From Caenorhabditis elegans (lineage: Eukaryota; Nematoda; Chromadorea; Rhabditida; Rhabditidae), in assembly GCF_000002985.6 (NCBI RefSeq), contig NC_003280.10, positions 930,001 through 994,000 of the forward strand: a DNA stretch of 64,000 nt. The letters run 5' to 3'. Under the pieces are notes generated by a model, which was not told where the DNA came from, searched no databases, and saw only the letters and a list, made by a program, of their open reading frames with translations. The position numbers and the translations under genes are program-made. Positions 530-63,095 of the stretch are shown here, one piece after another (positions within the stretch are counted from its first letter, which is position 1; each line of letters opens with the position of its first letter).

Positions 530-1720
530 GGTGAGTCGATATGATTTGTGGAGGACACTGTCTGTGGGTGGAGCAGAAAAGAGCAAACTGTCAGCAGCGA
601 GCAAAGTTCTGCCAAATCAATTGTATGTTACGACTAAAATATTGAATTGGGTACATTGATAAGAAGTCAAAAAGGCAGTGCGTTCAAAAACTCATGCAAA
701 TACCTGGCGCGATGCGTGCATTGCACACAAAGTAAGTTTTTGCTTACTTTTAATATTCCAGTTGTAAAATTTATTTCAGACCATGTTGGATCATCCTACC
801 AGCAAGCGACGATTTGGAAATCCATGTCACTGTCACTCAAGATAAGATAAATTCGAAGCAATTCAGCATAAAGTTAACCGTTTATTGAATATTTACTGGA
901 TTTTCAAATTCTAATAAAATTTCTAAATAATTCTTACTGGGGTTTCACGTCTTCTCTGAACAGTTGGTGTGGCCTATGTAAAACTCTGTGAAAGATTTGT
1001 TGTCTATGTCTCCTGAAAACACACAGTCTTTTGACGTGACCTCTTCAATGTTGTGTGCACGTCGTCTGAGAGACATTTGACGGCACTTCTGTTTACCTTC
1101 AGGCTCTCTTGCTCGCTGCTGACAGTTTGCTCTTTTCTGCTCCACCCACAGACAGTGTCCTCCACAAATCATATCGACTCACCATGCAACTCTCCTATTT
1201 GAATTTGAAATCTGTACTGAAATATTTGGAGCCAAATTTGAGGTGAGACAAAAATTTTGTGTATTCTATAAACCACTAAACTTTTTTAAGAATTCAATTA
1301 TCCATGCGATGCCCCTCTATCCAATTTTGTGAGAAAACCTCCCCATTACATATCCAAGAGCTTTGTTGGACCAAGACAAGTCTGAAAATTAATGAGACTT
1401 ACTACAAGACAACTAAAGCTATTTGGAAGGCGAAAGAATCAAGTCAAGAATATGTTCTCCTAGGTCTAGAAATTGGTGGTAGTACTGAACGAGCAGTTTT
1501 TAATACGACGTTCGGGGAAGTTATGAATTATATCCTGAAACAGATGCTGGGAGGCCGGCAGGTTATCGCAACACATACTTGCATTGGAATGGATACTGAT
1601 GCTTTTCAAAATGGGAGGAATCTTGTCACCGATACTTTGGAGATTTACACAGGAGATTTACGCAAAACTCTTGACACTCTCTCCTCAATATTTCACCCGT
1701 CAAGTTTCCCATTGAAATCT
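1..1720. repeat. Inverted duplication (arms about 1-606 and 1104-1720)
   Basis: The sequence from the left edge to about 606 is the reverse complement of 1104 to about 1720, with scattered substitutions. The arms carry the promoter, exon 1, intron and the first part of exon 2 of two DUF3557 genes. The spacer (about 607-1103) shows no gene I can support. The right arm's gene continues beyond the homology only because the left copy is cut by the window edge. Confidence 0.85.
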
Positions 1721-2294
1721 TTGAGAATACTTGACAATGCAGACTTCAAGCACCCTATAATCCAAGGTTCCCTGCTCCTGGTTGTTCCGAATACTGAGAA
1801 CATGCATCTGATATCTAATAAAAGAGTACACGCGCGATATTTTTACTACAAAGATGACGTCGACTTTATTATTAATAAATGGCTGGATGATGGAAAAGAA
1901 GCTGGAACCCATTTTTCTATTGGAATGTTTTTGACTGAAGACCATGTAAAAGAGAAGTATGAAGAGTTTTTGAGCACGTTTGAAGAGAGAGTTTCGTGGA
2001 GGTAAAAGTTTTTGGCATTTTCCAGCAGCCGACAATAATAGGGTTCTAAAATAAGGAAGTTAATTCGGTAGTACTGTGGAGTGAAGGTTGACAATGAAAG
2101 TACTGTAATAAATACAAATAGTCACTCTGAATACACGATTTGAAATATTTTTCAGAACAAATTATCCGCCATGCTTTGCAATCAATATCGACAACTTCTC
2201 TGAGATTGTCATCGGCTACGAGGAATTCCAACAGATTTCCACACCGGAATGGAGATTGAACTTCAAAGTACAGAAGAGAGAAGAATTTGTATAA
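1184..2294 (+). CDS. DUF3557-family protein, 302 aa
   Basis: Exons 1184..1242, 1291..2001 and 2156..2294 join in frame (909 nt). Exon 1 encodes MQLSYLNLKSVLKYLEPNLR. Exon 2 begins IQLSMRCPSIQFCEKTSPL and carries YILKQMLGGRQVI (core block), a ..PLKSLR.. segment, KRVHARYF, and WLDDGKEAGTHFSIGMF. Exon 3 gives the family tail FAINIDNFSEIVIGYEEF..WRLNFKVQ. The linker is short compared with the larger family members, and the core block is diverged (no KLHEAMKYL). The first acceptor is TTTTTTAAG rather than TTTTCAG. No signal peptide or membrane segment is visible, so it is probably intracellular. Biochemical role unknown. Confidence 0.8.
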
Positions 2295-2419
2295 CTCTAT
2301 TTTCTTCAATAAAATAATTTTTCGTTTTTTAAATACTTCAGCGGACACAACAATTTTTACAAAACTAGAACTTGAATCTACCAAAACGTATCCGTCAAGC
2401 AACTTTCTGATTAGAGCTT

Positions 2420-10683: not shown

Positions 10684-10699
10684 TTGTTGTACTCCTCGT

Positions 10700-16559: not shown

Positions 16560-18181
16560 TCACAATTTCCTCCGAACTGTGATCTTCAAACTCCAGTCGT
16601 TTCCGTCTTGTGCTTCTTCCTTCTCGTCAAAGATGTGAATTTCCGAAAATGCGTTGATAGGGATGAGAACACTACGTCCGAGTTGAGAGCTTCTGAAACA
16701 AAATTATTTTTTGACATACATATCTTCTGTACTTGCATTTTAATAAATGCAGTACAGTACCCTTCTACAGTAACCCAACTTACGTTTTATGTCCTGCATA
16801 CTTTGCGCCAGGCAGCTTCCGGATATCCTTGAAACACACTAGCGCTGTAACCTCGGTCAGTGAAAAATTCCAAATCGTCCCGACTTCCTTCCCATGTCTC
16901 AACCAATTCGCAATAAGGTCCAAAGCTTCTCGTGGGAAGATGGTCGACTTTTCCAGCTCTACTCGAACATTGGTGAATGCTGATCTGGCTCGGAACAGGT
17001 TTTCATTTGGGTTCTTGAAGATCAGGAGTGGGGAGGTTTGGAGTATAGGATTTTCGATGTTGAAGTCATTGTTCAGTTTGATGGATTGCAGGCTGGATCC
17101 TTCTAGCAGTGGTTGAAAGGAAATTGCGATTTTATCCACACCGGAGCCCAGGATTTCCAAATGGGTCACCTTCAAGTTGAGGCTTGCTGGAACTCTAAGG
17201 ATCCCTTTATTCTCGATTGAAAGCTTTTTCACTTGGATAGCATCCCGTCTTCCACTGAACAACTTGAAAATCAGGTATTTGAAAGCCTGGTGAAGCTTCA
17301 TGTTGTAGGAGAGCTTTTCATCGCGGAAGGTGATCAGTTTATTTTTGTTCACAAAATCAATATCCCAAATTGGCGCAGGAACACCCACTCTGCGAGACAG
17401 AAATAGACTCTTGATAATTCCGACGTAACATTTACGGTTCACTAGCTCCGATTTTTCCGTCGTCATTTTAAGTTCCTTCTTAAGTGCCTCCCCGATCAGA
17501 GCGTTTTTCTTTTCCCAGTCATCTGTCAGCATTCTTAGCTCGTATTCCATTCTGAGTATCCGCTTCTCTCCTTCTTCCAGACTTCGGTTATCCACTACAA
17601 CATCTCGTTGCTCATCTATCACCTCACCAAGATCCATAGATCCAACTTCATCGAGATCGTACGGGCTTGAGAAGTAATTGCAGACCACTGCTAGAGAATA
17701 GTCTGTGTTGTTGATCTTCACACGACACTGATCCAGTTCCAAGTGACCGATTTTCAATGGGATTGATTTTTCAGCTTTTCGGATTGATGGGCATCTTTGG
17801 GAAAGTTGGATTCTGAAAAAAAAAACATTGAGTGGAGTGCAAGCCCACTTTGACACCTCATAACTCGGTTACTTTTGACGATATCAAAAAATTTTCAACT
17901 ACAAAACTAAAGAGAAATAGATGAGAAACATTTTGTCAGTCAAAATTTTTTTGATAAAACCAACGAGAACAGATATATCAGCCCTCAAAGTTGAAAAATA
18001 TGAATGGTAATTTATGACCCAAAAACTTCTATTTTCTGTTCAATTGAGAGTAAAACTTGGGTATTTTGTATTAAAATATATCAATTTAACTAAAGGAAAA
18101 TAAAACATACCTCGAATTAACCTCCATATGCTTGATGACACATTTGAGACTTGGATAGGTGAGCGGCAATGAGTACGCCAT
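16560..18181 (-). CDS. DUF3557-family protein, long-linker type, 410 aa
   Basis: Minus-strand exons 18181..18111, 17812..16784 and 16692..16560 (1233 nt) join in frame. Exon 1 is MAYSLPLTYPSLKCVIKHME. Exon 2 starts IQLSQRCPSIRKAEKSIPLK and has a YDLDEVGSMDLGEVIDEQ linker and a charged, probably coiled-coil stretch (EEGEKRILRMEYELRMLTDD). It then has KLHQAFKYLIFKLFSGRRDA, LRVPASLNLKVTHLEILG, FTNVRVELE and WLRHGKEVGTIWNFS. Exon 3 ends VLIPINAFSEIHIF..WSLKITVRRKL. This full architecture is what I regard as the family norm. Confidence 0.83.
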
Positions 18182-18489: not shown

Positions 18490-20449
18490 CTTGCGAACAG
18501 TAATAACCAAATTCCATGTTCCAATAGTTTCCTTATTCCTCTAATAGAAGACGTAGACTTCTGCACTCGAGTCGATAGGGAAGATGACGTAGGATTTCTT
18601 GTGGCTGGAAATTAAAATTTTCAGCATTTAGCATGTTGTACTGACATTTTTTACACAGTTTTTATTGTTCTGAAAGTTAGTCAGGCCTCATCAGCTGAAC
18701 TGTAGTCTGATCTTAGTTAAACTTCGGGCAGGATTTGATCAGACCTAGGCCTGACTTAGGAACATGTTTAGGATGAGCCTTGTCCAACATATATAATGTT
18801 CGAAAATCAAATAACTTACCTTACTCTTCTCGCTTTAGGATCCTTCTTCAACTCCTTAATCATCTCCTTCACCTCACTCTTCGTGTCAAATTGCAGCGAA
18901 TGACGTGACCCAACAGGCGGCGTATGTGCCAACAATATTCCCACAAGCCTAATCCAATACCTTATATCAAACCTATCTCCATTATAAATATGAACATTTG
19001 GAAAAGAGCTGATAGTTTTAGCTATATTTAGACAATTTGAATATGGCCTCTGTATGACAATCAACCGCCGAGCGGAATGAATATCCGGGTGCTGAAACTC
19101 TGAGTCGTCCAAACTTGAAGGGTTGAGGATATTTCGGACTACTTCAATATATAGATCAAAGCTGTCATAGCAACTTGCTAGAGACAGGTTTCGAACTTTA
19201 AAGTTCAACCATATTGGGAGATCCATAAACCGTGGTCAGCTCGACTTGTTGATTCGCGAGCTTCAATAGTTTTTCGAATTCTAGGTCAATATTCTCATCA
19301 AGTCTTCCATTGTGAATAAGGAGCTCAGAAGATTGAATGACGTTATCGTCTATAGAAATCGAGCCATTGAGCTCCAGGGATTTGAATGGAATGCTTTTGG
19401 GATCAAGGAGTACTCGGAACTTGCTCCAAAACGATTCCGCCTTCTGATCCAATAATTCCAAGTTCCGGCTGCAAATTGTTAGGCTCCTTGGCAAGCAGAG
19501 CACTCCAGACTCGGAACAAACTTCCAATGTCGCGAATAGCATGGAGCAGGATCTCCATTATTCACGACTTAATAATTATTCTATAATTATTGTATAATTA
19601 TGTACTCTACAATGGACGCTAACAACACCGAGCATTTCTATCACCATCGCTCAAGGAACAACCAACAGTCAGTGCTAACAAAGAACAACCACGTGAACCA
19701 TTTGCGACGTGAACCCCGGATGGATGCATACAAGGAACAAGATAATCTAACAACAACAACATTCACGCCATGAACTTGCCACGCCAATACGAACAACTCA
19801 ACCTTGGACACGTGGACCATATTGCCAACCTTGGAGGGACTTCCCGAATCAGTTCTTACTTTATGTTCTTGCGTTACTTGTCTATTAGTGTTACTAGTTG
19901 TCTATAATAAATCCTTGTAGAGTCACCAAGTGTACTGTTAGTTTAACTTATACAAAATACCACTGAACGCACTGCGAAACATCCAACTTTTGAACTTTAA
20001 GCTGATTCCCTCCAAACAACCTTTCAACTAGGTACTTCATTGCTTCATGTAGCTTTTTGGTATAGGCTACCCTCTCCTGGAGGAAGGGCTTATTTCGCGT
20101 GAGCCTTATGTGATATTCGGTCTCTGGGATCACAATCGGAACCCAATCTTGCAGGTAATTTTGAGCACGTTTCCCTGCATGGTGGTGGACGGTTGTCAGG
20201 GTTTATGTCAGGGTTTATGACCAGGTGCTTGATGTGGAGAGGAATGGATTTTTCAGTGTGGCAGAGGCTTGGGCAACAGGCTGAGAGACGGCATCTGGAA
20301 ATATTTGTTTTGTTTTTCAGCGGCTGACACTTCAAGGGTCATCTCGAAAGTTAAACCAGTGAATTGTCGGCTGCTCTAACTCACCTCACATTACGCTCCA
20401 AATGCTCTATAACGTACTTCCAACTGGCAGAAGACATGGATGGTGACAT
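18490..20449 (-). pseudogene. DUF3557 pseudogene, interrupted and frameshifted
   Basis: Exon 1 (20449..20385, MSPSMSSASWKYVIEHLERN..) and the start of exon 2 (RLSACCPSLCHTEKSIPLHI) are recognisable. The frame breaks near 20130, where IPETEYHIRLTRNKPF and KLHEAMKYLVERLFGGNQLK continue in another frame. At about 19950 coding sequence stops at KLDVSQC and resumes near 19530 (LEVCSESGVLCLPRSL). After about 19200 a second, partly overlapping domain fragment begins (WLNFKVRNLSLASC). The last exon carries an in-frame TAG at 18541-18543 (…AEVYVFY stop). Several independent lesions make this a dead copy. Confidence 0.78.
19545..19950. mobile_element. About 400 bp insertion in the DUF3557 pseudogene (possible solo LTR)
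   Basis: Unrelated sequence separates two contiguous parts of the pseudogene's exon 2. It has TGTA..TACA-like ends, an internal CTATAATAAATCC polyadenylation-type signal, and base composition unlike the host exon. I do not see a clear target-site duplication, so the solo-LTR reading is tentative. Confidence 0.35.
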
Positions 20450-30535: not shown

Positions 30536-30690
30536 ATGGCGGATTCCAAGCGGCTGAGCTACCCAGCGTTGACATGCTTGTTGAAGCATTTGGAGCCGAA
30601 TTTGAGGTGAGTTATTGGAGGTAATTTGTCAGTTAAAACGAATAATTTTAGATTCCAAATCGCTATCATGTGATCTCAATCAAGCCTTTA
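30536..30690 (+). pseudogene. DUF3557 orphan: promoter, exon 1 and first codons of exon 2
   Basis: ATG at 30536 gives MADSKRLSYPALTCLLKHLE then PNLR and a GTGAGT donor (exon 30536..30606). After a 45 bp intron, exon 2 begins IPNRYHV/FQIAIM-like sequence and hits TGA within eight codons. Homology then ends in a palindromic-repeat fragment (about 30690-30770). The rest of the gene was lost when repeats and the protease duplication arrived. Confidence 0.75.
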
Positions 30691-40778: not shown

Positions 40779-42926
40779 CTACAGATTAGTTCCCCAACAA
40801 ATCACCCACTCGTTGCAATAATCTATGGGTCGTGTGGCAGGATCCCATGGTTTTGCATTAACTTCTTGATAAATGTTTTCCACGTTCAATTGGTAGCCGG
40901 GAGCTAAAGAAAAGGTCATTGTTTGGATGTTTTGAAAATTTATGTCCGTTGTCCATTGGTGCAACCAGTGCATAACTTGTTCAGACGAAATAAATGCATT
41001 TTTGGCGCTTAAATGACGCCCCTTGAATCGAGGGATTACACTGTCAGCCATTAAACATGAACTACCAAGAAACAATCTCTTGATTGAGAACAAACCACAT
41101 TCATCTTTAAGTTCACCATCTATCTGTGGATACAACGACAAACTGCCTAAGTTCGGCCATGTCGAAAAGATTTGATCTAGAAAGGTGATTGGGATTGTAT
41201 CTAGCTTAACCATTTCACTTAGAATAATGTGGTTGACATTTCGAATATTTGAGAAATGGTGAATCTTTTGTTGACTCATTCCTTGCTTCCAAAAAAATAT
41301 TATATTTGATTTGAGATGTGTTTGGTGGAGGTTCAAAATCGTGTTTCGAAGCATTTCGTGAACTACTTTTAAGGTTGATCCATTGAAATAAAATTTGATT
41401 ATACTGCTGGCTTCATGGCACGGAGTTGCGCTGAAATGCAAAATTAAAATTATTTACTGTGCTGGCCACAAACGGGGCTTCGTGAATTTTGGACTGTGTT
41501 AAATTAACCATAACTTAAAAGCTAATCATTATTTTCGAAAACGGTCAACTAACAAAACGTTGGTCATTATGTTGTTGACATTGCCTGACCGATATTATTT
41601 TACAAAAACTGCCCTGAAAAACGGTACAGCGACAGACATCTGGCTGGTCGATTTTTGACCTCGAATCTGAAATCGTCTGTAACTCAAGAAAAAATCGCTT
41701 CCATGAGAATAATTGAATTAATAACATGATCTTCATAAACATTTATGCCCTATGCATATAATAACTTTGTCCTCAACCCGCCGGGAAGTGAATGATATAC
41801 AACTAAGCCTATATATTCCAAACTGTTGTGGATCATATTTCATAAAAATGATAGGACTTTTCAGAGTATTGTTTTCAGGCGTGAAACGACCTACATAACT
41901 ATGATAAATTATTGATTCTTCAAAAAAACAAATGAATAATCAAAAGCAATCATTATTTTCGAAAACCGGCAACTAACACAATGTTGGCCATTATGTTGTT
42001 GACATTTCCTGACCAATATTATTTTACAAAAACTGCCTTGCAAAACATTACAGCGGCAAACATATGGCGGGTCGGTTTTTAACCTTGAATCTGAAATTGT
42101 CTGTAACTCGATAAAAATTGCTTCCATGAAAATAATTGTATTAATGAAATAATTTTTACTAAAGATGGAAGCGATTTTTTCTTGAGCTACAGACGATTTC
42201 AGTCAAAAATCGACTAGCCAGATGTCTGTCGCTGTACTGTTTTACAAGGCAATTTTTGTAAAATAATACTTATCAGACAATTTGAACAACATAATGACCA
42301 GCATTTTGTTAGTTGACAGTTTTCGAAAACAACGTTTAGTTTTTCAATTATGGCCATTCAAACAAAGCCAAAAAAAAAAACGAAAAACCGTTTGTGCATA
42401 TCTTTTTGGCCAGCATTGTATTTACAGTAAGACTTTTGTATTACATGTGTAATATGGACATATTGGATACCCTATACTTACAGTCTTTCGGTCAGAACTT
42501 TTCAAAGTACAGTTTTTGAAAATTTTGATTGAGCTCGGCTGCGCTTAAGAGAACTCAAAAACGCTGATAATCAGGCTAGTATATTTTCAAAACGTAAGGA
42601 ACTGACCAGTAAACCATTGTTTGTCCAATTTTCAATTTAAACCACTTTTCTTGCTGAATAATGTCTTCTCTTGACGCTTCTCTAATTAAAAACGATAAGT
42701 GTTCACTTAAATTATTAATGTCCTTCATTTGCATGACGTAAGAACGTTCAACGGATAAATTCGAACACGAATGGATCATCGACGAGTATCCTTTTTTTAT
42801 TGATTTTCTGGCCAACGTTTCAGTTTTGGAAGAGCAAAATGAAAAGTTAAGCACGTCGATGAAGCTCATTTCCTGAGGAATTTGCCTACGGATCACAAGT
42901 GGAAAGGTGAAGAGGTTGAAGGGCAT
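40779..42926 (-). CDS. F-box protein with FBA_2-type associated domain, 323 aa
   Basis: Minus-strand exons 42926..42607 and 41430..40779. ATG lies just after a TTTTTTTTCAG site at the 5' end (possible SL trans-splice acceptor). The N-terminus (FNLFTFPLVIRRQIPQEMSF then IDVLNFSFCSSKT) is a worm-type F-box. The C-terminal two thirds (IHHFSNIRNVNHIILSEMVK, ISSEQVMHWLHQWTTDINFQ, NVNAKPWDP-like) match the FBA_2 (FBXB-type) region that recruits substrates to SCF ubiquitin ligases. A further exon-like stretch at 40762..40645 (EEWLDISSNGRLISILVKP) resembles the usual FBA end but does not join in frame, so the 3' end may be altered. The donor of exon 1 is TG|GTCAGT. Confidence 0.75.
41455..42421. mobile_element. 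Mariner-like non-autonomous element with TA flanks
   Basis: Ends TACTGTGCTGGCCACAAACG and ..TTTGGCCAGCATTGTA form terminal inverted repeats with TA borders. Inside, a unit of about 190 bp occurs three times (about 41520-41705 and 41945-42125 direct, 42165-42345 inverted), sharing GAAATCGTCTGTAACTC and TTTTACAAAAACTGCC. No transposase frame. It occupies most of the F-box gene's intron. Confidence 0.75.
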
Positions 42927-43408
42927 TCTGAAAAAAAAAACTATATACATTATGTAATAAGAGGAAATGGTAAGCAGCAACTTATAGAGAAAAGAGAAAA
43001 TTCAATACAAAAGTAATTGTTTTTTTTTGAAAAAAAAAATTGTGCATAGTGATAGCGATAGTGCAGGATTAATTATCAATAGAATTGTATAAGTGCCAGG
43101 CTCATAAAAAACAGCGATTGAAAATAAAGCCATTGAGTACAGAGCAAAACCGATTAAAGCCTCGATGTTTTATTCATCTTGATTTGAACTTCAACATTTT
43201 CGGGGAAAAAAACGATAAAGCACCATGAATATAACATTCATACAACATTTGGTGGTACCTAAAAACTTCAAAAATATGGAGCTGTGTGCTGGCCAACCGA
43301 GGGGTCAACCATGTGACGTATTGCGTCTTCCCACCGATGCAGTCTCCCGCTGGTCTATGGAATTGCGGGAGGCGTCAACTTGCAGGACCAATTTTTCGCT
43401 GAAAACGG
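42927..43408. other. Intergenic, no gene seen
   Basis: About 480 bp upstream of the minus-strand F-box gene. AT-rich, with no family exon or RNA gene recognised. Confidence 0.5.
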
Positions 43409-44302: not shown

Positions 44303-45511
44303 ATGTTAAATTCAAAACCAGTAAGCTACCAAGTATTGAAGTTCATATTGAAGCATTTGGATCCAAGTTTGAGGTGAGTATTTTGGCTTGGAAAAGTTAC
44401 GTATTTAGAGGGTTGAGTTTTGAGAATGACGGAGTTTTCGGAGTTGAAATTTTTGGGTATAGAGGAAATTCATCCAAATCACAGCTCACATTATGTTTCA
44501 AGCTTTTTGCTCAAGTGCCACACAATTTTTTAATACATAGCTAAACCTACCTAACTATAAGTATATTTCAGAATCCAACTCTGCCTCGTCTGCCCTTCAA
44601 TTCATACCTTAGAAAAATCAACCCCTTCCTACATCCACTATCTCAAGATAACAGATAACAGCGTGACAGTTAACCGGGTAACCTGTCAAATTACAGTTAC
44701 CGATAGAAAAGTTGATTATCAATTTGATATCAATCAATTCCCAAGTATCAGTGGTACAGTCGAACTAAGGAATAGTAGAAATAATCTGACCAAAACTATG
44801 AAGTACCTTCTCGACAAACTCTTTAAAGGAAGAACTGTGAAAGTGGGCCAACTTGCAATTTCTTGTGAAAATCCTCTACGGGTTCCGTTAGCTGCCAGGA
44901 TCAATGTCAATGTTTTGGAGGTTTTTGATTCCCGGAGCTTGTCGGCTGCTAGTTCACTAATTGCAAACTCTTGTCTACCATTAAGCTTGATAAAACTCCC
45001 ATTTAAAAGCCTTCTGAAGACTAATAACAATCCAATTACATCAATAGTAAACCGAAAAACTAAAAAATGGCACTTCAAAGCTCCAACCACAGCTCCACAC
45101 AACCTCAGGCGGGTACTGACGTTCCTGCAAAATCGGAGAGTTACAACTGCACATTTCGAAAGGGGACACTTCTGCTTTTCAATTGTTATAGAATACTTTA
45201 TGGGTGATAGTGATATAGAAAATGGAACTTATTATACATTTGACACAACTAGGGGAGCTGTATTTGTAGTTATGGAGAGGAGTAGGAAGAGGTATAAAGC
45301 GATGTTGGAAGATGGGTAAGTTAATCTAAGGTTGAATATTTTCAAAAAAAATCTAAAGTTGAATACTTTCAGATCTTCTCGACGTTCCAATCAGCTCACC
45401 ATCAAGAAGAACAGCACCTCGAAATTGGTTATCAGCAAGATACAGCAGGGAGATGCATGGATTTTGGGTTTCAAAATTGAGCGGCGAAGACTTTTCCCTA
45501 CTTTTTTTTGA
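44303..45511 (+). CDS. DUF3557-family protein, short-linker type, 317 aa
   Basis: Exons 44303..44373 (MLNSKPVSYQVLKFILKHLD then PSLR), 44572..45315 and 45373..45511 (954 nt, in frame). Exon 2: IQLCLVCPSIHTLEKSTPSY, YLKITDNSVTVNRVTCQITV, a shortened linker, TKTMKYLLDKLFKGRTVKVG, PLRVPLAARINVNVLEVFDS, RRVTTAHFE, IENGTYYTFDTTRG. Exon 3: LVISKIQQGDAWILGFKIER, then a few extra residues before the stop. The HEA of the core block is missing and the aromatic W before GKE is lost, but the frame is clean. Confidence 0.78.
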
Positions 45512-46257: not shown

Positions 46258-48946
46258 TCATCGGCTTTCCACTTTCATTTTCAAAATCCACGAATTTCCA
46301 TTTTGAAACTTCTTGATTACCACTTTGGAGGTCCCGTTCAAGTTTAATGTGATCCGATTGTTTCCTGCTTGTCTAAGTGAGAATTAACTTTAAAATTTAA
46401 ACAAAAAGTTTCAAAAAAAAAACTCACTGAACCCTGCTCCAATAAGCTCTCCTAATATTCACCATAGCCTGATCTATCTCTTCCTGTTCAGTCTGAAACG
46501 TGTACTGAGTTCCGGGCTCTCTTTCACGTCTCATCCAGCGCCTTAAGACTTTTGGGTACCACAAATCTAGGAGCCATATTACAAGTTCCCCTTCACGTCT
46601 GACAGGATCGTTATTCACATTGAATCTGAGTCTAGTTGGAGCAACTCGCACGTCAAGCCTTACTTCATTTGGATCTTGCTCCATTTCTCTGGCATCTTGA
46701 ATATCATATTGTTCGACGTCAAATTCTTGGTCAAAAACAGATAATAAATAGGTAGACCCGTTTATTATTATACGATGGTCAGTAAGTTTCAGGTACCTGA
46801 TGTGCAGGGGTACCGACTTTTCCAGGTTCTGAATGGAAGGGCATCTAGTGCAGAGTTGGAATCTAAAATTTAAATTGTTTAATAGAACAGAAAGCTATTA
46901 ATAATAATAATAATTAATAAGTATGCCTATGACCTGGTTGACCTTTTTTTCTATTTTTTTAATTGACTAGCAGGCCCTGCGGGCCCGCCAGTTGTAGGGG
47001 GTGTAAGGCGAGTCCCCCTGCCGGGCGTAGGTTCTCGGCTTCGCCTCGAACCTGTTAGAGGGTTCGTGAAATTTTCAGTGGGTCAATGTCTTCTTGATTT
47101 TCGAGTTCGGTTTGACCAAAAACAGTCGCACCCGATGAATCAGTTAAAGCTGAGTTTTGATTGATTGAAGTTTGAGGAGGATTTATATGGGGGGAGACGT
47201 ACCCATATTTTGTATAAAATCGAGTATTACTATATAATATTCGAATCCCGAATACTCAAAAAAAACAAAAATGTTTGTCAGTTGGTAGAATTGAACCCAC
47301 TACCAAAATTTCCACAGACATAAGCACTAACCACTCGGCCATGCGGGAGAGAGCTTAAACTGGAAGTAAGGAAGGTGAATTTCTGGAGGGAGTCGTCTTT
47401 CGATTCCGCTTTCTTCAATAATTACATTTTGAGAAAAGGCGTTCGAAAACCGTTTATTACTGATATGTCAGCGGGAAAACGAATTTTTGAAAATTTTATT
47501 ACAGGATTGTACTCATTATTGATTTCCCAAAAAGGAGACGTACAGTTGAGGGCTATATCTTGTACACAGACAGATGTATAGAAAAAAACAAGTTTTGGCC
47601 TGAAAATTAATAAAAATAATATCTCTTGGCAGAGTATTTCTAATGCGACGAAACTTCATCTTTCATTAAATAAAATCAAAAACTATGAATCAAAAATACA
47701 TGCCGCAAAAGTTTAGTGGAAAAAATGTTCAGGAGACCCAGGAAACCACTCCCCCCAGTACTAAATTTTTGAATAATTTTTTTCTTGAAAAATTTTCCCA
47801 CTGAACTTTTTACAAATTTTATATGTCTCGATGCGTCTTGATGAGACCTACACGTCAATTTTTGGAAAACTAAGAAAATTGAAAACTGACCGAGTTATGA
47901 TTGAAAAAGTAGATTCACGAAAATGGAAAAGTGTGCAAAATTTGGCACTTATTCGTCTTGCTCGGCCGACTCATAGAACTTTTTTCAATTCTGAGTTAAA
48001 AATCGTGTTCAGCGTACTTTTGTACGTAGAGTAAACAAAAAAAATATCAAAAAAGATGAAGTAGAACTTGAGATAATGACGAAAAACTACTTTTTCGGAA
48101 AAAAAAAATTTTTTGGCAAAATGTCATTTTTTGGCCTTTTGTTTTATCACAACTTTTTTCCATTTGCACTTATGAACTCAAACTTTTTTTCAAAAAATCA
48201 GTCTCTCTGAGTAGTATTTTGCACATGAGTTTGAAACAAAACAGAGCAAAACCCGAATTTTAATTCAATTAAAACATGCTTTTTTGGGGGTAAAAAGAGC
48301 AACAAAAAATTTTTTCAAACAGGGGAAAGCCGTCCTGGGCTCAATTTTGCTCCGAACTTAGTGCCGTTTTTTGCTCCACCGTGGGGCAAAATATTTCTAG
48401 TAGGATTTCAAATATTAGAGCATGAAGTCACACGGTTCAGGAGTTGTGAATGAAAACGAAGTGTGACATTTTTTCGCAAGCCAAAAAAAACGCGAAAAAA
48501 CGCGAAAAAGGGGCGGAGTCGCCACACTCGGCATTTATTAGAGGCTGCTTGGCAGAAAAAATCATGGGAAAATTCTATGAATTTTTTACAGTTACTTACA
48601 TATTCCGTACCTCCTCTCATAGTATTGCACCCAGCTATTTCAAAAGGTAATAACCCTGTTCGATTAAATGATATCAATAAATTTTCAACTGCACATCTGT
48701 AGAAAAAAATCTATTAATTATTTTCTCAGTTGCCAATTTTTAATAAAACAAACGCCAATTGAGATATGAGCTGTCGAAGTAGTGCAATACTATTAGAAGA
48801 GCAACGGTATGTTTTCTGTATATTCAGGTTGTCATTTATGGCATTCAGTCATTTTTAAAACTAATATGTATCAAAACTCACCTCAAATTCGGCTCCAAAT
48901 GCTGCAACAAAAATCCCAATGCTGGGTAGCTCACAGGTCTATTCAT
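46258..48946 (-). CDS. DUF3557-family gene with central domain deleted, 204 aa
   Basis: Minus-strand exons 48946..48882 (MNRPVSYPALGFLLQHLEPN then LR), 46862..46428 and 46372..46258 join in frame (615 nt). Exon 2 has FQLCTRCPSIQNLEKSVPLH, YLKLTDHRIIINGSTYLLSV, EMEQDPNEVRLDVRVAPTRL, then passes directly to VIWLLDLWYPKVLRRWMRRE and PGTQYTFQTEQEEID. About 150 residues including the whole KLHEAMKYLLGKLFGGR core are missing without breaking the frame. Exon 3 ends VVIKKFQNGNSWILKMKVES. The first intron is about 2 kb and repeat-laden. The gene may be a functional short form or a decaying copy. Confidence 0.6.
46863..48881. other. Long repeat-bearing intron / gene-poor stretch
   Basis: Contains a GC-rich island (CTAGCAGGCCCTGCGGGCCC at about 46966), a class-II tRNA-like relic (47282-47349) and unassigned AT-rich repeats. 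No conserved exon is visible on either strand. Confidence 0.5.
47282..47349 (-). repeat. tRNA-Ser/Leu-like relic
   Basis: Minus strand reads ATGGCCGAGTGGTTAGTGC (class-II A box) and GGGTTCAATTC (B box). The stems are too degenerate for a working tRNA and no CCA-adjacent acceptor pairing is seen. Confidence 0.5.
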
Positions 48947-49422: not shown

Positions 49423-50825
49423 ATGTCGAGTTCTAAACCACTGTCTTCTCTAACCGTAGAATGCTTATTGAAGTATTTGGATCCGAGTTTGAGGTGAGTT
49501 CTAAATTTCTAGCCGACAATTTTTTGTAATACTCGCTAAATTTAGTTGAGAAGGACACTTGGAGCATTATAAGAAATTGCCCGGTTGGAGCTCAAGTGGC
49601 AGATTTGTTGTTTGATCTCCGATAATTAGCGGGAAACTTTAGTTTTTTTTCCTGGCGATTCAAATTTTTTGGAATTCAAACTAACAGGGGTCCACATAAA
49701 TTTAGCAGCAAAAACTGAGGTTTCAAGCAACTTTAAAAACGAATAAGTTAAATTTCAGACTCCAACTCTCCGCCACCTACCCTCCAGTCCAACACCTGGA
49801 AAAATCAATCCCCCTGCACACCAAATACCTGAAATTAACAGACAATACCATTACGGTCAATCAGTCTACATATCAATTGACTGTCTTTGCTGAAAATAAA
49901 GTTTATCAATTTGATATCAATCAAAATGCAATGCAAGATCTCGGGGAAGTCGAGGAAGATCCCACTGAACTGAGGATCGATGTCAGACATGGATTTGACA
50001 CAGGACCCATGAACGTACAAATTGCGCAACTTATGCAACTAGCAACGGGGAGACGACGGGCTCCACGGCAGAGTTCTGGGTCTGGGATTCAGCTGAAAAT
50101 TGGAGGAAGAATTGAAGTACTGAGTTATCAACGAAAGATGCATGAAGCTATGAAGTACCTGCTCGGGAGACTATTTGGAGGAAAAACTGTAAAAGTGAAC
50201 CATCTAGCCATTGGTTGTAAAACTATTCTTCGGATTCCTACAAGTTTCAAGTTGCACGTTGAAAATCTGGAGATTCTGGATACCAACACCTATAACAACA
50301 TGGAAACTGTTCGCTTGATGATTGAAGCTTCTAGTCTACCATTAAACATGGTGAAGTTCCGACCTACAAACTTCACAACTAACAACCATCCAATTGTACG
50401 AACAGCTCGAATGCTGTACATCCACGCCACATCTACTAGAAGGAGATTTAGAGATTTCATCGAAGCTCTGGCAAGACTGAAAAATATAAGAGTTCATGTT
50501 GAAAGCCGGGATCTGAGCTCAGGTTCTTGGTACATGACAGTCTTCAGATGCTGGATGAGATATGGCAAGAAAGTTGGAACTTACTACACGTTTGGTACTA
50601 CAGAGGAAACTATAAATAGTGCTATGAAGGTTTTTGGAAGACTTTATGGGAGCAGGACGGGGTGAGTTTTTTACTTTTTTAATTTTAAAATTTAAATTTG
50701 AATCAATTTCTTCCAGGTTTGATGGGCAAATCACTATAAACTTGAAGAAGACTTCCCAAGTTGTCATCAGAAAGGTTCAACAGGAAAATGAGTGGATTTT
50801 GGGAATGAAAGTAGAAAGCCGATGA
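49423..50825 (+). CDS. DUF3557-family protein, 360 aa
   Basis: Exons 49423..49493 (MSSSKPLSSLTVECLLKYLD then PSLR), 49759..50661 and 50717..50825 (1083 nt, in frame). Exon 2: LQLSATYPPVQHLEKSIPLH, YLKLTDNTITVNQSTYQLTV, FDINQNAMQDLGEVEEDPTE, KMHEAMKYLLGRLFGGKTVK, CKTILRIPTSFKLHVENLEI, LKNIRVHVESRD, WMRYGKKVGTYYTFGTTEE. Exon 3: INLKKTSQVVIRKVQQENEW then ILGMKVESR. The CPS motif reads YPP. Complete and typical; its closest relatives here are the genes at 51345 and 28961. Confidence 0.85.
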
Positions 50826-51344: not shown

Positions 51345-52433
51345 ATGTCCAATTTTAGACATCTGAACTACCCAGCATTGAAGTCCTTGTTAAAGTATTT
51401 GAACCCAAGTTTGAGGTGAGTTTATATCAATTTTTCGGGTTTTAGAAAACCTTAATGACTAACTAACTGACTAATATTGAGTTATCAGCCCCCTTAGTGT
51501 TCTAAATGCCTCAGATCACATAATTTTTAGGTGTTCTGTTAAGAAAAGCGCGGGCGTATTACCGCATCTCTTCTACATGCCGTAAGCCTCTTCTTTTTTT
51601 TAAAACAATTTCAATTCCAGATTCCAACTCTTCACCGGGTGTCCTTCAATCCAAAACCTGGAAAAGTCGGTGCCTATGTGCATCAATTACCTAAAATTGA
51701 CAGGTCATAGTATAACGGTGAACAGAGCTGCATATGAATTGGTTGTTTTCGATGAGAATCGACAGTTCAAATTCGATATCGACGAACATGGGAATCAAGA
51801 TTCCAGCGAACTCGAGGAAAATCCGAATGAAGTAAGGCTTAACGTGCGAGTTGCTCCAATTAGACGTCGAGTCAATGTCAGACGTTTTAATCGCGGTCCT
51901 ACTAGGAATAGTCTGATAAGACTGAAGATGGGAAGAAGAGTTGAAGTTCTGAGCTATCAACGAAAAATGCATGAAGCTTTGAAGTATATGCTTGGGAAGC
52001 TATTCGGAGGACGTAATGTGAAAGTGAACCAGCTCGCCATTGGTTGTAAAAGCATACTTCGGATTCCGACCACCGTCAAGTTTAACGTTAAAATTTTGGA
52101 GGTTCTGGATACCAACATCTATAACAACTTGGGAACCGTTTGCTCGATAATTGAAGATTCCAGTCTGCCATTTAACACGATAAAATTCCGGTTGGAAAAC
52201 TTCACAACTACTAATAACCCAACCGTACAGGCCGCTAGAATTTTGCATGTTCAGGCTATGTAGAGGAGCGTTGGGTGAGTTTTTTTTTCTAAATTTGAAA
52301 ATTATTTGTGTCCAGACACTCCGTGAACGCCGATGGAATAACAATGGACTTGAACGAGACTTCCAAAGTGGTCATCAAGAAACTTCACGATGGAAATAGG
52401 TGGATTTTGAAAATGAAAGTGGAAAGGCGATGA
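51345..52433 (+). pseudogene. DUF3557 gene, 3' part of exon 2 deleted
   Basis: Exon 1 51345..51415 (MSNFRHLNYPALKSLLKYLN). Exon 2 from 51621: FQLFTGCPSIQNLEKSVPMC, YLKLTGHSITVNRAAYELVV, FDIDEHGNQDSSELEENPNE, KMHEALKYMLGKLFGGRNVK, CKSILRIPTTVKFNVKILEV. It reaches ARILHVQAM and then TAG at 52261. The RVH and WM.YGKE.GTYYTF blocks are gone, although the exon 2 donor and exon 3 (to about 52433, WILKMKVERR) remain. A 237-residue product would be possible from the open part; loss of the C-terminal half suggests a pseudogene. Confidence 0.72.
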
Positions 52434-52870: not shown

Positions 52871-53141
52871 TAGTTTTTTCTTGCAGTCTATGTAGTTTCA
52901 GCTTCTGGTCCCAAAGTTCATCGACAAATTCTGAATTCGTAGATCAAAATTTTTCTGAAAAAGAGATCAACAGAAATTATTAAGTTTCTGACAAAATTTG
53001 ATTGATTGAGCCAATGTTTTGTGGCTTTCAAGTCAACAATATAAAATCCAATTAATCTTTGGAATACTAGCAGGGGCTGGAACTATTTCCAGATGGAGAA
53101 ATTTTAACCTTTATATATTTTCAGACATTCCAATTTCAGCA

Positions 53142-56017: not shown

Positions 56018-58610
56018 ATGAGACTACTCAATACTTTACGGAAGCCTTTTAGAGTTTTCCGCCGATTTTTAAACTCTTTAACTACTCGAAAAATAGGTGG
56101 GAAGGCTTTTTCCAAAAAAAAAAACGTTCTGAACACTAATTTTTTTTATTCAGAAAACAAATCATTCACCGAGCAGCTAACTGAGGAAGCAGATGAATTT
56201 ATATTTTCTAGCTCAAAATGTTGGCAACCTTCCAGGTTAAAATTTTTAAAAAAGTATTAATTGCCAAAATATTCGAATTTTCAGAGATGAACTCTCTCAA
56301 CGATGCCCATCACCCCAAGATTCCTATATTAGCACTTCCTCAAATTTCAGCACTGTTTCCGAAAAAACTTCCAGTTTTGGCATCCCAGAGGTTCTCAGCA
56401 AGAGTGAACATTTCACAAAAAGCCAAAAGATGATGACGTATCCATGCCTGAAGTCTGTGCTCGTTAACTTCGATCCAAATTTGAGGTGAGCGGGCGGCAA
56501 ACATGTACCTTTCCCTAAAACTGGCATAACTTAAGAACCTGATTAGCTACAAAAATGCCAAATATATTTTCTGAAAGTTCAATTTATGGGAATGTTTTTG
56601 TTATTTAAAAAAAAAAATATTCCATGTTTTCTTTGAGATATAACAGTTTGTATGTGTAAATCTACTGTTTTTAACTGAAAAACTCAAAGTATACTTCAAC
56701 TTTTTAAAATTCTCAGTGAGAATCGTAAGATTTAATGTTAGTTTTGTAATGGAAAATAACACAATTAACTTATTTTTAGAGTTTCATCAAAAATGGAATC
56801 AAAAATTTTTTTCACTTTTTTCAAAAGTTTTTCTTTGAGAAAATTTAAAAAAAAAAAGATTGTTTTCGTCGCAAATTGCTCATTTGCTCTGCTCATTTGT
56901 AATTGCAACAAGTTTAAAAAAATTGTGCTAAAAACTTGCTATATGATTAGAAAAACCAATCAGAAACCAATGAAATATAGTACTAACAAAAAGTTTTGGC
57001 AAAATTAAAATTTTCTAAATAAAACTATATTCGCAGATTTTTTAAAGTGCATTATAAAAAGTAATTTACTAGGTTCTTTTGAAAAATTAACAAAGTACAT
57101 ACTTTACTGTGTTAGAGGTACCCATTTACAGTGAAATTTCTGAGCAACTAAGCTTTCGAATTCTTGAGCCCCAATTGTAAGCAGAATTTTGAGCGTTGAT
57201 GCTAACCTTCAAAACCTTCCATTCCTCTTATGCACCCATAGTCAATACCAGGGGTGTACGGCAAATTTGCCGAATTTGCCGTTTGCCAAGCTCGGCTAAT
57301 TTTTGAAAAATAGATTTGCCGAATTTGCTGAGCTCGGCTGATTTCGAAATGCTCGGCAAAATTTGAGATTTGCTGCACACTCCTGGTACTAACCTCCAAA
57401 AGCTTGCAGTGCTCTTGTGCCCCATAGTCTATACGGCAAACCGGCAAATCGGCAAAGTGCCGGAATTGAAAATTTTCGGCAAATCGGCAAAATGGCAACT
57501 TCCAGAATCGAGCTTTCTCTACGATGCCCATCACTTCGATCAATCAACCAAAGCACCCCTTTAGAAATCGAAACGCTTTCCGTGAATTTTTCGGGTTTAA
57601 TAATCAACTCACACAAATATTACCTCCAAATTGTGGAAATCAACACAAACGACGTGTATATCAAAAGTGGAGAGCTCCATGGAAAAAAGCTGCCGCACCA
57701 ACTCCGACCATTCACGAACTGCAGCCCAGGCACATATATTGGGTTTGAAAATGATACCGACAGTATCGAATGGGCCACTAGTTCCAAAGATCGAAAGGAA
57801 GCGGTTGCCTATCTATACGAAAGAGTGCTGGGGAACCGGAATATCCCAATCAAAGTGAGCAAGTTGGATATCAATAGTAACACTGTATATTTGGAGGGCC
57901 TGAGGAATCTGAAGCTCAGCGTGAGTGAGCTGGAACTTGATGACTATACTGGGAGAACACAATTGCTGAGCTCAATAGCTCTATACCTTGATCCATCAAA
58001 CTTCCCATTAAAGTGTCTCAGACTTCCAAAGTTTTTGATGGGGTGGGAAAAAGACGGTATGCTAAACCATCAAGTTATCCAGACAGCAAAATTGCTGACA
58101 ATTAACGGGTTCCCCCAATATATTCACAAAATTTCAACTCGAATAGTTAGAGTTCACCTAGACCTCATAAAGTCAAATTGGGATATTAGCTTCATATCCG
58201 AAAAGCTGATTAAATTGATCGATCACTGGTTGGACATTGGCAAGGAAGTTGGGACTAGGTTCTCATTTGTTTGGAGCGCTACAAGGATGAATGCAGCACG
58301 TGATATCTGGAAGGCCATACGGGATAAATTTATTTTCCGAATTAGAGAAACTCAAAGGTAAGAAGCAGGGGTGTGCGGCAAATTTGGCAAATTTGCCGAG
58401 CTCGGCAAGTTTGGCAAATTTGCCGCACACCTCTGGCAAGAAGTGTTAGGTCATTTTCCATCTTTCCTCCTATCAAAATATTATTTCAGAACGGATGATT
58501 GTTTCGAGCCGCTCAAAATTCCATCACGCTTCTATTCAGAAACCTGGGTCAGTATTAGAAGAGGATCTGGTTACGAGTGGATTTGCAACCTTGAAGTTCG
58601 AAGTCTGTAA
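56018..58610 (+). CDS. DUF3557-family protein with two extra 5' exons, 444 aa
   Basis: Exons 56018..56096, 56154..56235, 56285..56485, 57506..58357 and 58490..58610 (1335 nt, in frame). The basic N-terminus (MRLLNTLRKPFRVFRRFLNS) and an acidic exon precede exon 3, which contains ELSQRCPSPQDS, a Ser-rich stretch and then MMTYPCLKSVLVNFDPNLR. The usual large exon follows: IELSLRCPSLRSINQSTPLE, EAVAYLYERVLGNRNIPIKV, NFPLKCLRLPKFL, VRVHLDLI, WLDIGKEVGTRFSFVW. The tail is RFYSETWVSIRRGSGYEWIC. The core block is VAYLYERVLGNR rather than MKYLLGKLFGGR. Exon 3 begins with a copy of the start of exon 4, suggesting internal duplication. The N-terminal Arg-rich segment could be a localisation signal. Confidence 0.78.
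56525..57130. repeat. Intron repeat, inverted relative to 4240-4440
   Basis: The 1 kb intron between exons 3 and 4 contains ACTGAAAAACTCAAAG and ATAACAGTTTGTATGTGTAA, which match the reverse complement of acyl-CoA synthetase intron 3. The remainder is AT-rich without genes. Confidence 0.6.
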
Positions 58611-58894: not shown

Positions 58895-60977
58895 ATGCAC
58901 CAACTCAACACCTTACGAAGACCTTTCAGAGCCTACCGTCGGCTTTTCAACTCCTCAGCTTCTTGGAAAATAATTGAGTAAAGTATTAATGCGACTTTGA
59001 AAATTATTCATTTTACAGAACACGGGACATCCCCCAAGCTTCTGAAGTTTACACCGAGAACCGATGGATCTGAATTTTTATTCGAAAAGCAAAAGTTCTC
59101 AAATCCGCTGACATATCCCTGTCTAAGAGCTGTGCACCGTCAGCTGGACCCAAATTTGAGGTGAGCCCCTGCTCAATAGGCTTTAGGGTATTTAAATCTT
59201 TTTTCTGAGCATTAGACCCTGTTTGTTTTTAAAGGTGGAGTAGCGCCAGTGGGGAAATTGCTTTAAAACATGCCTATGGTACCACAATGACCAAATATCA
59301 TAGTAAAAAAATTCAAAAAAATTTTCTAAATTTAATATGATTTTTTGAAAATTGAAAAATTCTCGAATCGCATCAAATTCCTATTTGAATTACCGCCAAT
59401 AGTTTGATGTTCGATGGAGCGCGCTAGCATTATTTTAATTTTTATTTATCAATTTTTCTTATTTTTGATTGATTTTTCATGTTTTTTGAGTAATTTTAAT
59501 GGAAATTTAATGAAAAATTCAAGATAAATGTAGATTGTTCACTAAAAATAACTGAAAACAGAGGGAGCACGTTTTTCAACGACGTTGAGCCTGAAATAAT
59601 CTATTTCAAAGATTTAGGCTTTAGCGCCCGCTTTTTAATGAAAAATTAACATTTATCTTGAGTTTTTCATTAAATTTCCAGTAAAATTACTCAAAAAAAA
59701 ACATGAAAAATCAAGCAAAAATAAGAAAAATTAATAAATAAAAGTTAAAATAACTCCATCGAACATCGAACCAATGGCGGTAATTCAAATAGGAATTTGA
59801 TGCAATTCGAGAATTTTTCAATTTTCAAAAAATCATATAAAATTTAGAAAATTTTTAAAAATTTTTTTACTATGATATTTAGTCATTGTGGTACCATAGG
59901 CATGTTTTAAAGCAATTTCCCCACTGGCGCTACTCCACCTTCAAGCCTTTAGGCTGTTTCCTGTGTTAACTGGGCTATAGAAATCTTAAGCTTTTGACTC
60001 TAGGCTTCCACTTTCAGAATTGCACTTGCTCAACGCTGCCCATCACTCCAAAAAATCGAAAAAAGCACGCCCCTGAGGATCAATACCCTTTCTTTTGGCA
60101 CTTATGGCTTGAAAATCAACTCGCACACTTATCACCTTCAAAGAATTAATATAGGAAAGCCAGAAAACACATTTATTCAATTGGAAAGAGATGCCACACT
60201 GATCTATGGTCTTCGTGATACTAAGCACTTGCCTGTTCTCAAATGCGCCACGTGTTCCAGAGACTACAGAGAAGCTCTCATCTATTTGTACGAAAAGGTG
60301 TTGGGAAACCGCAATTTACCAGTCAAAGTCAACAGGATGGAGTTCAAAAATTATTTTTCAAGACAAGTGTGGGACCTGAGAAATGTTAAACTCAGAATAA
60401 AGAAGCTGGAAGTCCATAATGAAATTAAGCAGGTTCTAAGCACACTTGCTCCGTGCCTCGATGAATCTAGCTACCCGTTGGAATCCCTCGAACTAGTGCA
60501 ACAGTTCTTCACTTCGGATGATTTGTTCAACCATCATATCATCCAAACAGCAAAGGATCTGAGAATCATCGGTATCCACGGAAATTTCCACAGACTTCCA
60601 AATCTTAGAGTGCACATCCAGAAGGTGAACGTTTCCCCGGCAACGCTAATCAAAGCGATCGATTATTGGTTGACCCGTGGCAAAGAGATTGGAACTCATT
60701 TTTCAATTTCTTCCTGTGAAATGTTGGAGGAAGAAGCACGAGTTTTGTGGAAGGCCATAAGGACAAACTATATTGATCTAGTTGAGGAAAATCAGAGGTA
60801 GATGAAAGAAGATGATTTTCTATCTCCCCATTGAAACATAATTTCAGATTAATCGATTTTTCTCCCGAGCCACTGAAAATCAAATCACGCTTTTTTTCGG
60901 AACTCTGGTTCAACGTTGTAAAAGAATCTGGTAACACTTGGATCTGCGACCTTCAAGTTCGAAAAACCCGAGCTTAA
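58895..60977 (+). CDS. DUF3557-family protein, extra-5'-exon subtype (5' frame unresolved)
   Basis: Exon 2 (59019..59160: SPKLLKFTPRTDGSEFLFEK, LTYPCLRAVHRQLDPNLR), exon 3 (60018..60797: IALAQRCPSLQKIEKSTPLR, EALIYLYEKVLGNRNLPVKV, YPLESLEL, LRVHIQKVN, WLTRGKEIGTHFSISSCE) and exon 4 (60848..60977, ..TWICDLQVRK) join in frame. A first exon homologous to that of the 56018 gene (58895..58977, MHQLNTLRRPFRAYRRLFNS) has a GA|GTAAAG donor. This is one frame off exon 2, and exon 2 has no in-frame ATG. Either the true start or donor is elsewhere, or the gene is newly broken. The 857 bp intron is occupied by a TTAA-type palindrome. Confidence 0.65.
59229..59944. mobile_element. TTAA-type palindromic element (GGTGGAGTAGCGCCA termini), copy 4
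   Basis: TTAAAGGTGGAGTAGCGCCA to TGGCGCTACTCCACCTTCAA, with the same nested arms as copy 3 but about 180 bp longer, because the inner GAACATCGAAC and CATCAAATTCCTATTTGAAT segments are repeated. Confidence 0.9.
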
Positions 60978-61699
60978 GCTTCGCAAAGCTTATTAGTTGC
61001 TCAAGTCAAATGAAATAAAATTGTTGAGCAGACACATTTCTTTATATTTTTGAAATTTCAAGCTTCAGAACAAAGCTTCAGCCCTGAACCCCCAAACATT
61101 TGCTGGGCTTTTTATCTAATAAAATAAGTTCAAGTTTAAAGTCTTTTCATATAATTGTTTCTCTATGTAGATATTGCAGATTTATTTGTCACTGGTAATA
61201 AACTTGTTGAGCTGTTATTTTCAGTATTAACAGTATCAAAATTTTCAAAGATACAACCCTATGAAATTAACTATCCAATAATGTAAAATTCACTGCTGGC
61301 CGATTTGTGACGTCTCCTTCAGCCTCCTTTCTAGGGTTACCTTGTCATTACCTTCTCGACAAGTGTGGTGTTTTTCCAGTTGATATTTTCGAAAACGACT
61401 GGCGTCCTCCATTTTTCAATAGAATTTTGATTCTTTTTTTTTTGGAATTCCATTTTGTATAATCCTACTTTACAAATTTTTAGTTCGAAAATTCACGGCT
61501 GCGCCAACGCGCAGCAAGCGAGCTCCACCGCAATTCGACGCCCAGGAGACTGTATCTTTTTGACCTATGCAGTGGTCTCTGTCTTTGGCGCTGCAAAACA
61601 CTAATCGACGCACCATAAGTGTCTCTTCCGCTCACTTGTTTCTTATTCATTCTATCCAATTTTTCAATCTTCTTACATTTTTCTATCTCTCTTTTTAAA
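60978..61699. other. Intergenic spacer
   Basis: 3' flank of the previous gene, then a known-looking worm repeat (AACGCGCAGCAAGCGAGCTC at about 61515 and GTGGTCTCTGTCTTTGGCGC at about 61572), then the likely promoter of the gene at 61700. No other gene seen. Confidence 0.5.
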
Positions 61700-63095
61700 A
61701 TGATCGGTTCTTATCTTAAAATCGACTCAAAACCTTTGAGCTATCAAAGTTCGAAGGCGGTTCTCAAGCATTTGGACTACAATTCGAGGTTCGTTTTTTA
61801 AAGTAAATTTTTAAGCTTAAGTCTAAGCCTGAGCTCTAAGCCTAAGCCTGAGCTTAACCAAAAGACTAAGCTTCTTTTTTCAGATTCCAACTCCACGAGC
61901 AATGCCCATCTCTTCGCAATGTTCTCAAAGTCACTCCAGGCTTTCTAAACCGCCTGGAATTTGTTGGGGACTGTGTGAAAATCAACGGAACGACCTATCA
62001 ATTGAAGATGACGCCAGTCAAGCTGGGAAGCACTACCAATCACATTCAGCTCTGGATTAATGGGAACCTCTACGCAAAAACCGTCAGCGAACCGCAGAAC
62101 AATAAAGAGCTGGCTTACCTGGTCTGTAAGCTTCTGCGTCAAGCCTGGGAAGCGGTTTTGTATGTTGGGACGCTGGTTTATGGAAATTTAATTTTCCCCG
62201 GTTTCCCAAAGTTTTTCAAGTTTCACGTTCAACATTTGGTCATCGGAAAAGATCAAGACGCGTCCGATGTTCTGCGGAGATTCGGTGAAAACTTCCAAAA
62301 TTCAAGCTTCAAGTCTTTGGAGCTATTTCGTACCAGTAGTTTCGAGGTCCCACTGATCCAGTCAGCGGAGAAGCTGATTATCAACGAGCGTATGGACTTG
62401 AGTGCGCTCAAGAGTCGGAGAGTTCACGTGGAATTTAAGATCGACTCAAAGTTCCTCACAGATCTTATTGATTGCTGGTTGTGGAATGGAGCTGTGGGGA
62501 AGACCGAGAAGGAAGCTGGATCAGTGTTCATTTTTGCGATGAAAGGATTTCGGGAGGCGAGGATGTTCGTTGATGATGTTAAGATGAAGTTCGAGGGAAA
62601 GTTCTATGTGGATAAAAGGTAAGTAATCCTAAATCCGAGTTATCACATTTGAAAGATCAAATTCCACTCATGGAAGATCGGATTCCACATATAGAGTCCG
62701 AATTCCGATCTTCCTTAGGTGAAATCCGATTGGTAATAGCTGAATAATAAAATTCTACCTGGGGATGATCAGATCCCATCTACTGAGTCCGATTTTCGAT
62801 CTACCACAGGTGGAATCTTTTTTTGTTCAAAGCATAAAGTTTTCACAGTTGAAAAATCAAATTCCACTTATGGAAGATCGGATTCCACCTAGGGATTCCG
62901 AATTCCGATCTTCTATAGATGAGTTCATATCTTTCACAGCTGAAGCATCATATTTTTATTTTCCTTATTTTTAGGTGGTCACACTACAAGCCGTGCTTTG
63001 AATTCCCGATGCAAAATTCTTCAAGCTTGCAGCTTGACTACTGTGTGGAGGATGAGAAGGTCATTTTGGTCATGAGAGTTGAACAATCGCTTTGA
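61700..63095 (+). CDS. DUF3557-family protein, 314 aa
   Basis: Exons 61700..61788 (MIGSYLKIDSKPLSYQSSKA, VLKHLDYNSR), 61884..62618 and 62975..63095 (945 nt, in frame). Exon 2: FQLHEQCPSLRNVLKVTPGF, VKINGTTYQLKMTPVKLG, ELAYLVCKLLRQAWEAVLYV (diverged core), FPKFFKFHVQHLVIGKDQDA, SRRVHVEFKI, DLIDCWLWNG..EAGSVFIFAM. Exon 3: CFEFPMQNSSSLQLDYCVED..VILVMRVEQSL. The donor of exon 1 is AG|GTTCGT. A TTAGGC-like block sits in intron 1, and intron 2 holds a minisatellite. The core block is the most diverged of the intact copies. Confidence 0.75.
61805..61865. repeat. Interstitial TTAGGC-like block
   Basis: AAGCTTAAGTCTAAGCCTGA and CTAAGCCTAAGCC (complement of TTAGGC) repeats within the first intron of the 61700 gene. 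Confidence 0.65.
62640..62930. repeat. Minisatellite in the second intron of the 61700 gene
   Basis: Five or so imperfect units around GAAGATCGGATTCCAC and CCGAATTCCGATCTTC, spaced about 40-120 bp. Confidence 0.7.

Follow-up and report, generated by a model that had tools for sequence, protein, structure and literature searches.

The F-box attaches a protein to a ubiquitin ligase. Genes named fbxa, fbxb and fbxc are grouped together as F-box genes (PMC9762603). The products of fbxc-31, fbxc-32 and fbxc-42 are listed as hermaphrodite-enriched F-box C proteins (PMC3439400), and DUF3557 is predicted in the products of fbxc-42 and fbxc-31 (PMC8789292). FBXC-58 is described as an F-box protein with roles in immunity and in dietary restriction, tied to lifespan (PMC9876644). 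Families A1, A2 and B are those of Thomas 2006, as recounted by PMC12062965. In Caenorhabditis tropicalis, KSS-1 has an F-box-like N-terminus without sequence conservation that binds SKR-1 at 1:1. Co-immunoprecipitation of eight SKRs with CUL-1 and CUL-6 was reported for KSS-1, its toxin (the target) is degraded, and a structure search returned 221 Caenorhabditis elegans proteins that resemble it (PMC12680543). Here, the DUF3557 genes in a 64,000-nucleotide stretch of the C. elegans genome were analysed (C2:930001-994000, referred to as the window; the genome comprises 100,286,401 bases in 7 contigs). C2 is almost surely chromosome II, and the DUF3557 genes of the window part of a tandem cluster there. 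Very probably these are FBXC genes with a divergent, intron-split F-box N-terminus, encoding putative Skp1-Cullin-F-box (SCF) adaptors with a substrate-binding C-terminus.

A profile search of the window found DUF3557-like matches in 25 open frames. The Pfam family DUF3557 (PF12078) was matched by 8/10 window frames scanned, all 8 above the cut-off, with exon-2 E values of 8.5e-20 to 4.3e-47. A short exon 1 (18-29 residues) was joined to the DUF3557 exon 2 in 14 window copies, and a fifteenth copy lies at 26674/27082. The consensus is M...SKPLSYPxLKxxLKHLDPNL for exon 1 and xQLSxxCPSLxxxEKSxPLHIxxL for exon 2. Introns in all 14 joined copies are GT-AG, split one Arg codon and measure 48 to 2,019 bases. 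The exon pattern that a preliminary description of this DNA had read across an intron was thereby confirmed. The upstream search for exon 1 covered 20 of the 25 frames; the fragments at 7860, 19201, 19951, 27621 and 54827 were left out. When 20 more stretches of this genome were added, 36 joined models were obtained. After exclusion of one model (L038m4702), whose exon 1 belonged to another gene, and of five duplicates, the set comprised 30 distinct joined N-termini, 15 of them window copies and 15 from the other stretches. In this search six exon 2s had no detectable exon 1, and neither in the window nor in the added stretches was a copy seen in which the two exons are contiguous. The segment C4:899001-905000, part of an array on contig C4, lies outside the stretches covered.

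The exon-joining finder assumed phase 2, so support for the junction was taken from independent evidence. The joined product gives a 48-column alignment without gaps to a family in which the F-box is contained in a single open frame, and joined products match the Pfam F-box, whereas none of the four exon halves tested (those of g44303 and of a gene near C2:3.248 Mb) matched Pfam.

The family with the uninterrupted F-box (here the bridge family) is small and comprises L054-L058 on contigs C3 and C5. Comparison of the 30-member N-terminal profile with it gave an hhalign E of 1.5e-06 and a probability of 90, and the 48 gapless columns include R, QLS and PL. The score was 30.96, compared with 15.98 for the best of 300 column shuffles (0/300 reached it). 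The same profile scored 16.5 against 7 PDB F-boxes and 15.5 against 14 worm F-boxes, in each case exceeding 300/300 shuffles and in the same register. An early profile comparison, made with a set that included a misaligned window F-box row (later removed), gave P 0.036. A hidden Markov model (HMM) of the DUF3557 N-terminus found bridge members at E 1.6e-06, 2e-04, 0.0054, 0.4 and 0.71 (Z = 20,000). When 5,051 six-frame segments from the window and the fetched loci were searched, junction-spanning matches at E < 0.1 were L054 (1.7e-05), L058 (9.1e-04) and L055 (0.074); two segments from DUF3557 regions were also returned at this threshold. The Pfam F-box (PF00646) was matched at 2.3e-07 and 9.7e-04 by the two bridge members scanned, and three loci of the family lie above the F-box cut-off. 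The bridge family differs from the DUF3557 genes in having the whole F-box within one open frame, theirs being split by an intron; it is perhaps a sister or the source of the DUF3557 N-terminus.

Five of the 30 joined N-termini matched PF00646 at E <= 1, including 2/14 from the window. These were g44303 (exon 1, 44303..44373; exon 2, 44572..45316; forward strand), the top F-box match seen among joined window copies (E 7.5e-4, 19.8 bits), and g20449 (exon 1, 20385..20449; exon 2, 20093..20294, short and probably decayed; reverse strand; E 0.027). The cut-off of 20.5 bits was reached by one DUF3557 gene, the one outside the window near C2:3.248 Mb (E 8e-07, 29.2 bits), and by no window copy seen. 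That gene (L043, C2:3246001-3251500, reverse strand; exon 1 from about locus position 2118 and exon 2 from about 1951) lies far from the cluster and has the clearest F-box seen in the family. The four F-box matches viewed individually and the consensus match (E 0.067) all fall in one register. Five other Pfam families were listed for the 30 N-termini, each with a single member at E 0.049 or weaker. For the remaining 25/30, Pfam gave no F-box at E <= 1, a search in which HMMER filters drop many weak matches. When PDB sequences were searched with a profile of the 14 window N-termini, three matches came up, none to an F-box (best E 0.28), and phmmer with the window's own F-box frame found no match in PDB.

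In the F-box register, LP occupies N-terminal columns 7-8, IL columns 15-16, LDP columns 19-21, C column 31 and W column 34. Column 7 is L, V, M, F or I in 30/30, column 24 (the split-codon Arg) is R in 30/30, column 31 is C in 24/30, and columns 15, 16, 19 and 27 are mostly hydrophobic in the 30 copies. At column 8, the position of the F-box proline, the 30 copies carry S (22), T (4), N (2), A (1) or P (1), and the LP motif is mostly not kept. This proline was not taken as defining, because the bridge family is recognised as F-box and lacks it too. Hydropathy fitted best at the same register, of 46 offsets, in both comparisons made, with modest r of 0.39 and 0.42. In the motif correspondence put forward in the preliminary description, IL and L-D/E-P hold, as does C in the V-C cluster; its P is column 10 (P in 10/30), two residues past the F-box LP proline, and the Trp column is L or I in 27/30. 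At another locus on C2 (L037, C2:867501-872500), a DUF3557 exon 1 retaining the canonical LP motif was seen (LPYECQKCVLQFFEANR). Judged from these alignments, the first ~45 residues of DUF3557 proteins are a divergent F-box, and the intron interrupts a conserved Arg codon close to where F-box helix 2 would begin.

Structure was modelled with AlphaFold for g28961 (exon 1, 28961..29031; exon 2, 29086..29926; forward strand; 54-nt intron; DUF3557 E 2.9e-46) and for an N-terminal segment. Both inputs were contiguous translations, so the F-box in each model is interrupted midway by a translated intron (18 and 16 residues). For g28961 in full, the model had a mean predicted local distance difference test score (pLDDT) of 77.3, with helices at 9-17, 41-48 and 50-58 and a helix at 21-30 running into the translated intron; downstream lie strands and then an alpha/beta C-terminus. 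The N-terminal model (mean pLDDT 59.4) had helices at 5-14, 31-42 and 44-51, with two short helices between. In these intron-containing models, helix positions are compatible with an F-box, at a low pLDDT of 35-64 for the block of residues 1-60.

Several results weigh against the reading of these genes as FBXC genes with a split F-box and an SCF-adaptor role. The LP proline is lost in 29/30 copies and the Trp is mostly replaced. The hhalign probability was 12.5% against the PDB F-box set and 11.1% against the worm F-box set, and the score of the 14-member window profile against the PDB set was equalled in 2/400 and 1/200 shuffles. In the reverse search, the bridge HMM reached the 30 N-termini at E 0.0016 at best, and the DUF3557 HMM missed all other recognised F-box loci (E 93 or worse). 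In the models containing the translated intron, AlphaFold assigned low confidence to the N-terminal region. Foldseek found nothing significant for the full intron-containing model in PDB or BFVD, and for the N-terminal model gave eight matches, none significant, among which the F-box chain 8gre_C ranked third (E 6.4). The fbxc literature, in the sections available, held no report of an FBXC protein binding an SKR or a substrate. The weak direct scores against distant F-boxes and the absence of a Foldseek fold match would be expected if the resemblance were convergent, an unrelated helical N-terminus carrying LDP and CPS by chance. Such convergence is highly improbable given the bridge-family E of ~1e-06 in a gapless alignment, at a register identical to that of the independent Pfam matches. 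Moreover, among the 5,051 segments, the only junction-spanning matches at E < 0.001 outside DUF3557 genes were two bridge members. The split, degenerate F-box proposed in the preliminary description is thus borne out in substance at the sequence level, by a Pfam match over the cut-off, the bridge family and the shared register; the profile-profile comparison proposed there as a check gave a clear match to one F-box family and weak ones to PDB and other worm F-boxes.

An F-box-derived N-terminus could also have lost SKR binding, the family then acting as a decoy or a plain binding scaffold. The missing LP proline and Trp favour this loss, as does the fact that a single joined N-terminus was seen above the Pfam cut-off. 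It is nevertheless rather unlikely, since the Arg is invariant in the 30 copies, columns 15, 16, 19 and 27 stay mostly hydrophobic, and KSS-1 binds SKR-1 despite having no F-box sequence conservation (PMC12680543). The N-terminal region is also under stronger constraint: among 13 window paralogs, mean identity was 46.5% in the F-box region vs 25.7% in the C-terminus, and the ratio of nonsynonymous to synonymous differences per site (pN/pS) was 0.50 vs 0.70, with synonymous sites near saturation. Variation in the C-terminus was greater in helices and loops than in strands. Under the SCF-adaptor reading, intact FBXC members would bind SKP1-related (SKR) proteins via the N-terminal F-box and would dock on CUL-1 or CUL-6. 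The large, far more divergent alpha/beta C-terminus (DUF3557) would bind substrates and present them for ubiquitination. An SCF adaptor with a substrate-binding C-terminus is a reasonable reading, and fits the F-box C name, the divergent C-terminus and the KSS precedent.

Open two-exon frames of 257-367 residues were found in g28961, g44303 and the following joined models. On the forward strand these are g1184 (exon 1 with the first F-box part, 1184..1242; exon 2 with the F-box remainder and DUF3557, 1291..2002; intron 48 nt; DUF3557 E 2e-21), g24974 (24974..25044 and 25384..26161; E 2.3e-31), g49423 (49423..49493 and 49759..50662), g56430 (56430..56485 and 57506..58358; E 1.9e-37) and g61770 (61700..61788 and 61884..62619). 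On the reverse strand they are g18181 (18111..18181 and 16783..17812; E 4.3e-47) and g36959 (36889..36959 and 35843..36836; E 1.4e-42). The joined model g27082 (26674..26738, calculated from intron length, and 27082..27691; forward strand) has a DUF3557-like profile match in exon 2. The open two-exon frames of 257-367 residues argue against the majority of window copies being pseudogenes and the array having little function, which is quite unlikely. Irregular copies do point that way. The copy at 22835 (exon 1, 22762..22835; exon 2 open frame, 21459-22490; reverse strand) has a one-base frame shift where exon 2 begins. No exon 1 was found by the upstream search at 7493, 11505 and 23844, and the exon-1-like stretch of 13531 lies behind a stop. 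At 30536..30606 (forward strand) a relic exon 1 (MADSKRLSYPALTCLLKHLEPNL) stands without an intact exon 2. The joined model g59110 (59087..59160 and 60018..60798; forward strand; DUF3557 E 6.2e-40) has no in-frame ATG in its exon-1 sequence. Shortened products were found in g20449, in g48952 (48882..48946 and 46427..46862; reverse strand), where the C-terminus is shortened and the 2,019-nt intron makes the pairing less certain, and in g51345 (51345..51415 and 51621..52260; forward strand), where the open frame ends early. Frame-shifted or exon-lacking copies may be decaying members of a birth-and-death family.

The copy g433 (exon 1, 471..529; exon 2, 2..422; reverse strand) extends past the window edge and is the inverted partner of g1184. 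The inverted pair occupies 1-604 and 1109-1703, with arms 83-92% complementary and ~500 bases between the inner ends. The 48-base introns of this pair (423-470 and 1243-1290) end in TTAAG and not in the usual TTTCAG. Genome-wide, 62 six-frame matches to DUF3557 were listed (42 on C2 and 17 on C4), the top-scoring being exon 2 of g49423. Those on C2 are concentrated at 0.87-1.0 Mb (28/42), and 16/17 of those on C4 lie near 0.89-0.91 Mb, where they form a tandem array (best period, 4,152 bases). This array (L045, C4:889001-899000, and L046, C4:905001-914500) has identical N-termini in several DUF3557 genes. No DUF3557 was found in the viral contigs searched. The preliminary description had also placed FBX/FBA genes in the window. 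In the 30 frames scanned, one separate F-box gene was found (42579..42980, reverse strand), with its F-box in one open frame (PF00646 E 1.5e-4, 22 bits vs the cut-off of 20.5), and no FBA match at E <= 1. Other window genes encode an AMP-binding enzyme (4740-6726), a Core-2/I-branching enzyme (9236-9857), a C-type lectin with a weak CUB match (15247-16128), a papain-like protease (33267-33874) and an Srh chemoreceptor (53019-54564).

The name F-box C thus has support from sequence in the split F-box, and domain searches can miss FBXC proteins, as the joined N-termini without a Pfam match indicate. The strings fbxc and 3557 are absent from the main text of two Caenorhabditis F-box surveys (PMC8665587, PMC12062965), so that such counts may lack many likely SCF adaptors. 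No mention of PF12078 was found in the papers searched. The available parts of the literature on DUF3557/fbxc genes held no description of a split F-box, and one may still be in print. Tentatively, FBXC could be a third large C. elegans clan of SCF adaptors, largely overlooked by surveys based on the Pfam F-box because its F-box is intron-split and its LP proline lost. Such a clan may use particular SKR/CUL-6 partners and be a fast-evolving reservoir of defence genes or antidotes, like the KSS antidotes.

Among known systems, the FBXA (F-box and FTH) and FBXB (F-box and FBA2) proteins are likewise worm families that combine an F-box at the N-terminus with a further domain at the C-terminus. 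They differ in that domain: in a scan of 8 DUF3557 frames, neither FTH (PF01827) nor FBA2 (PF07735) was matched at E <= 1. An FBA2-like ancestry of the C-terminus was considered and is unsupported; for the one F-box-associated-looking window segment compared, 55/100 shuffles scored equally high. The KSS/KSL antidote family, compared by its published description, shares an F-box without sequence conservation, and FBXC proteins are probably among the 221 KSS-1-like proteins. It differs in that a sequence-based comparison by its authors found no KSL homologue in C. elegans (PMC12680543). The FBXC class has the same Pfam domain as the window genes, fbxc-31 and fbxc-42 being both DUF3557 genes and F-box C proteins, and no difference was found. 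The window genes belong to this class, an assignment at class level through two gene names from the literature. Novelty of the split F-box as a class is low because genes of this kind already carry the F-box C name; to this known class, the split junction and the bridge family add useful detail.

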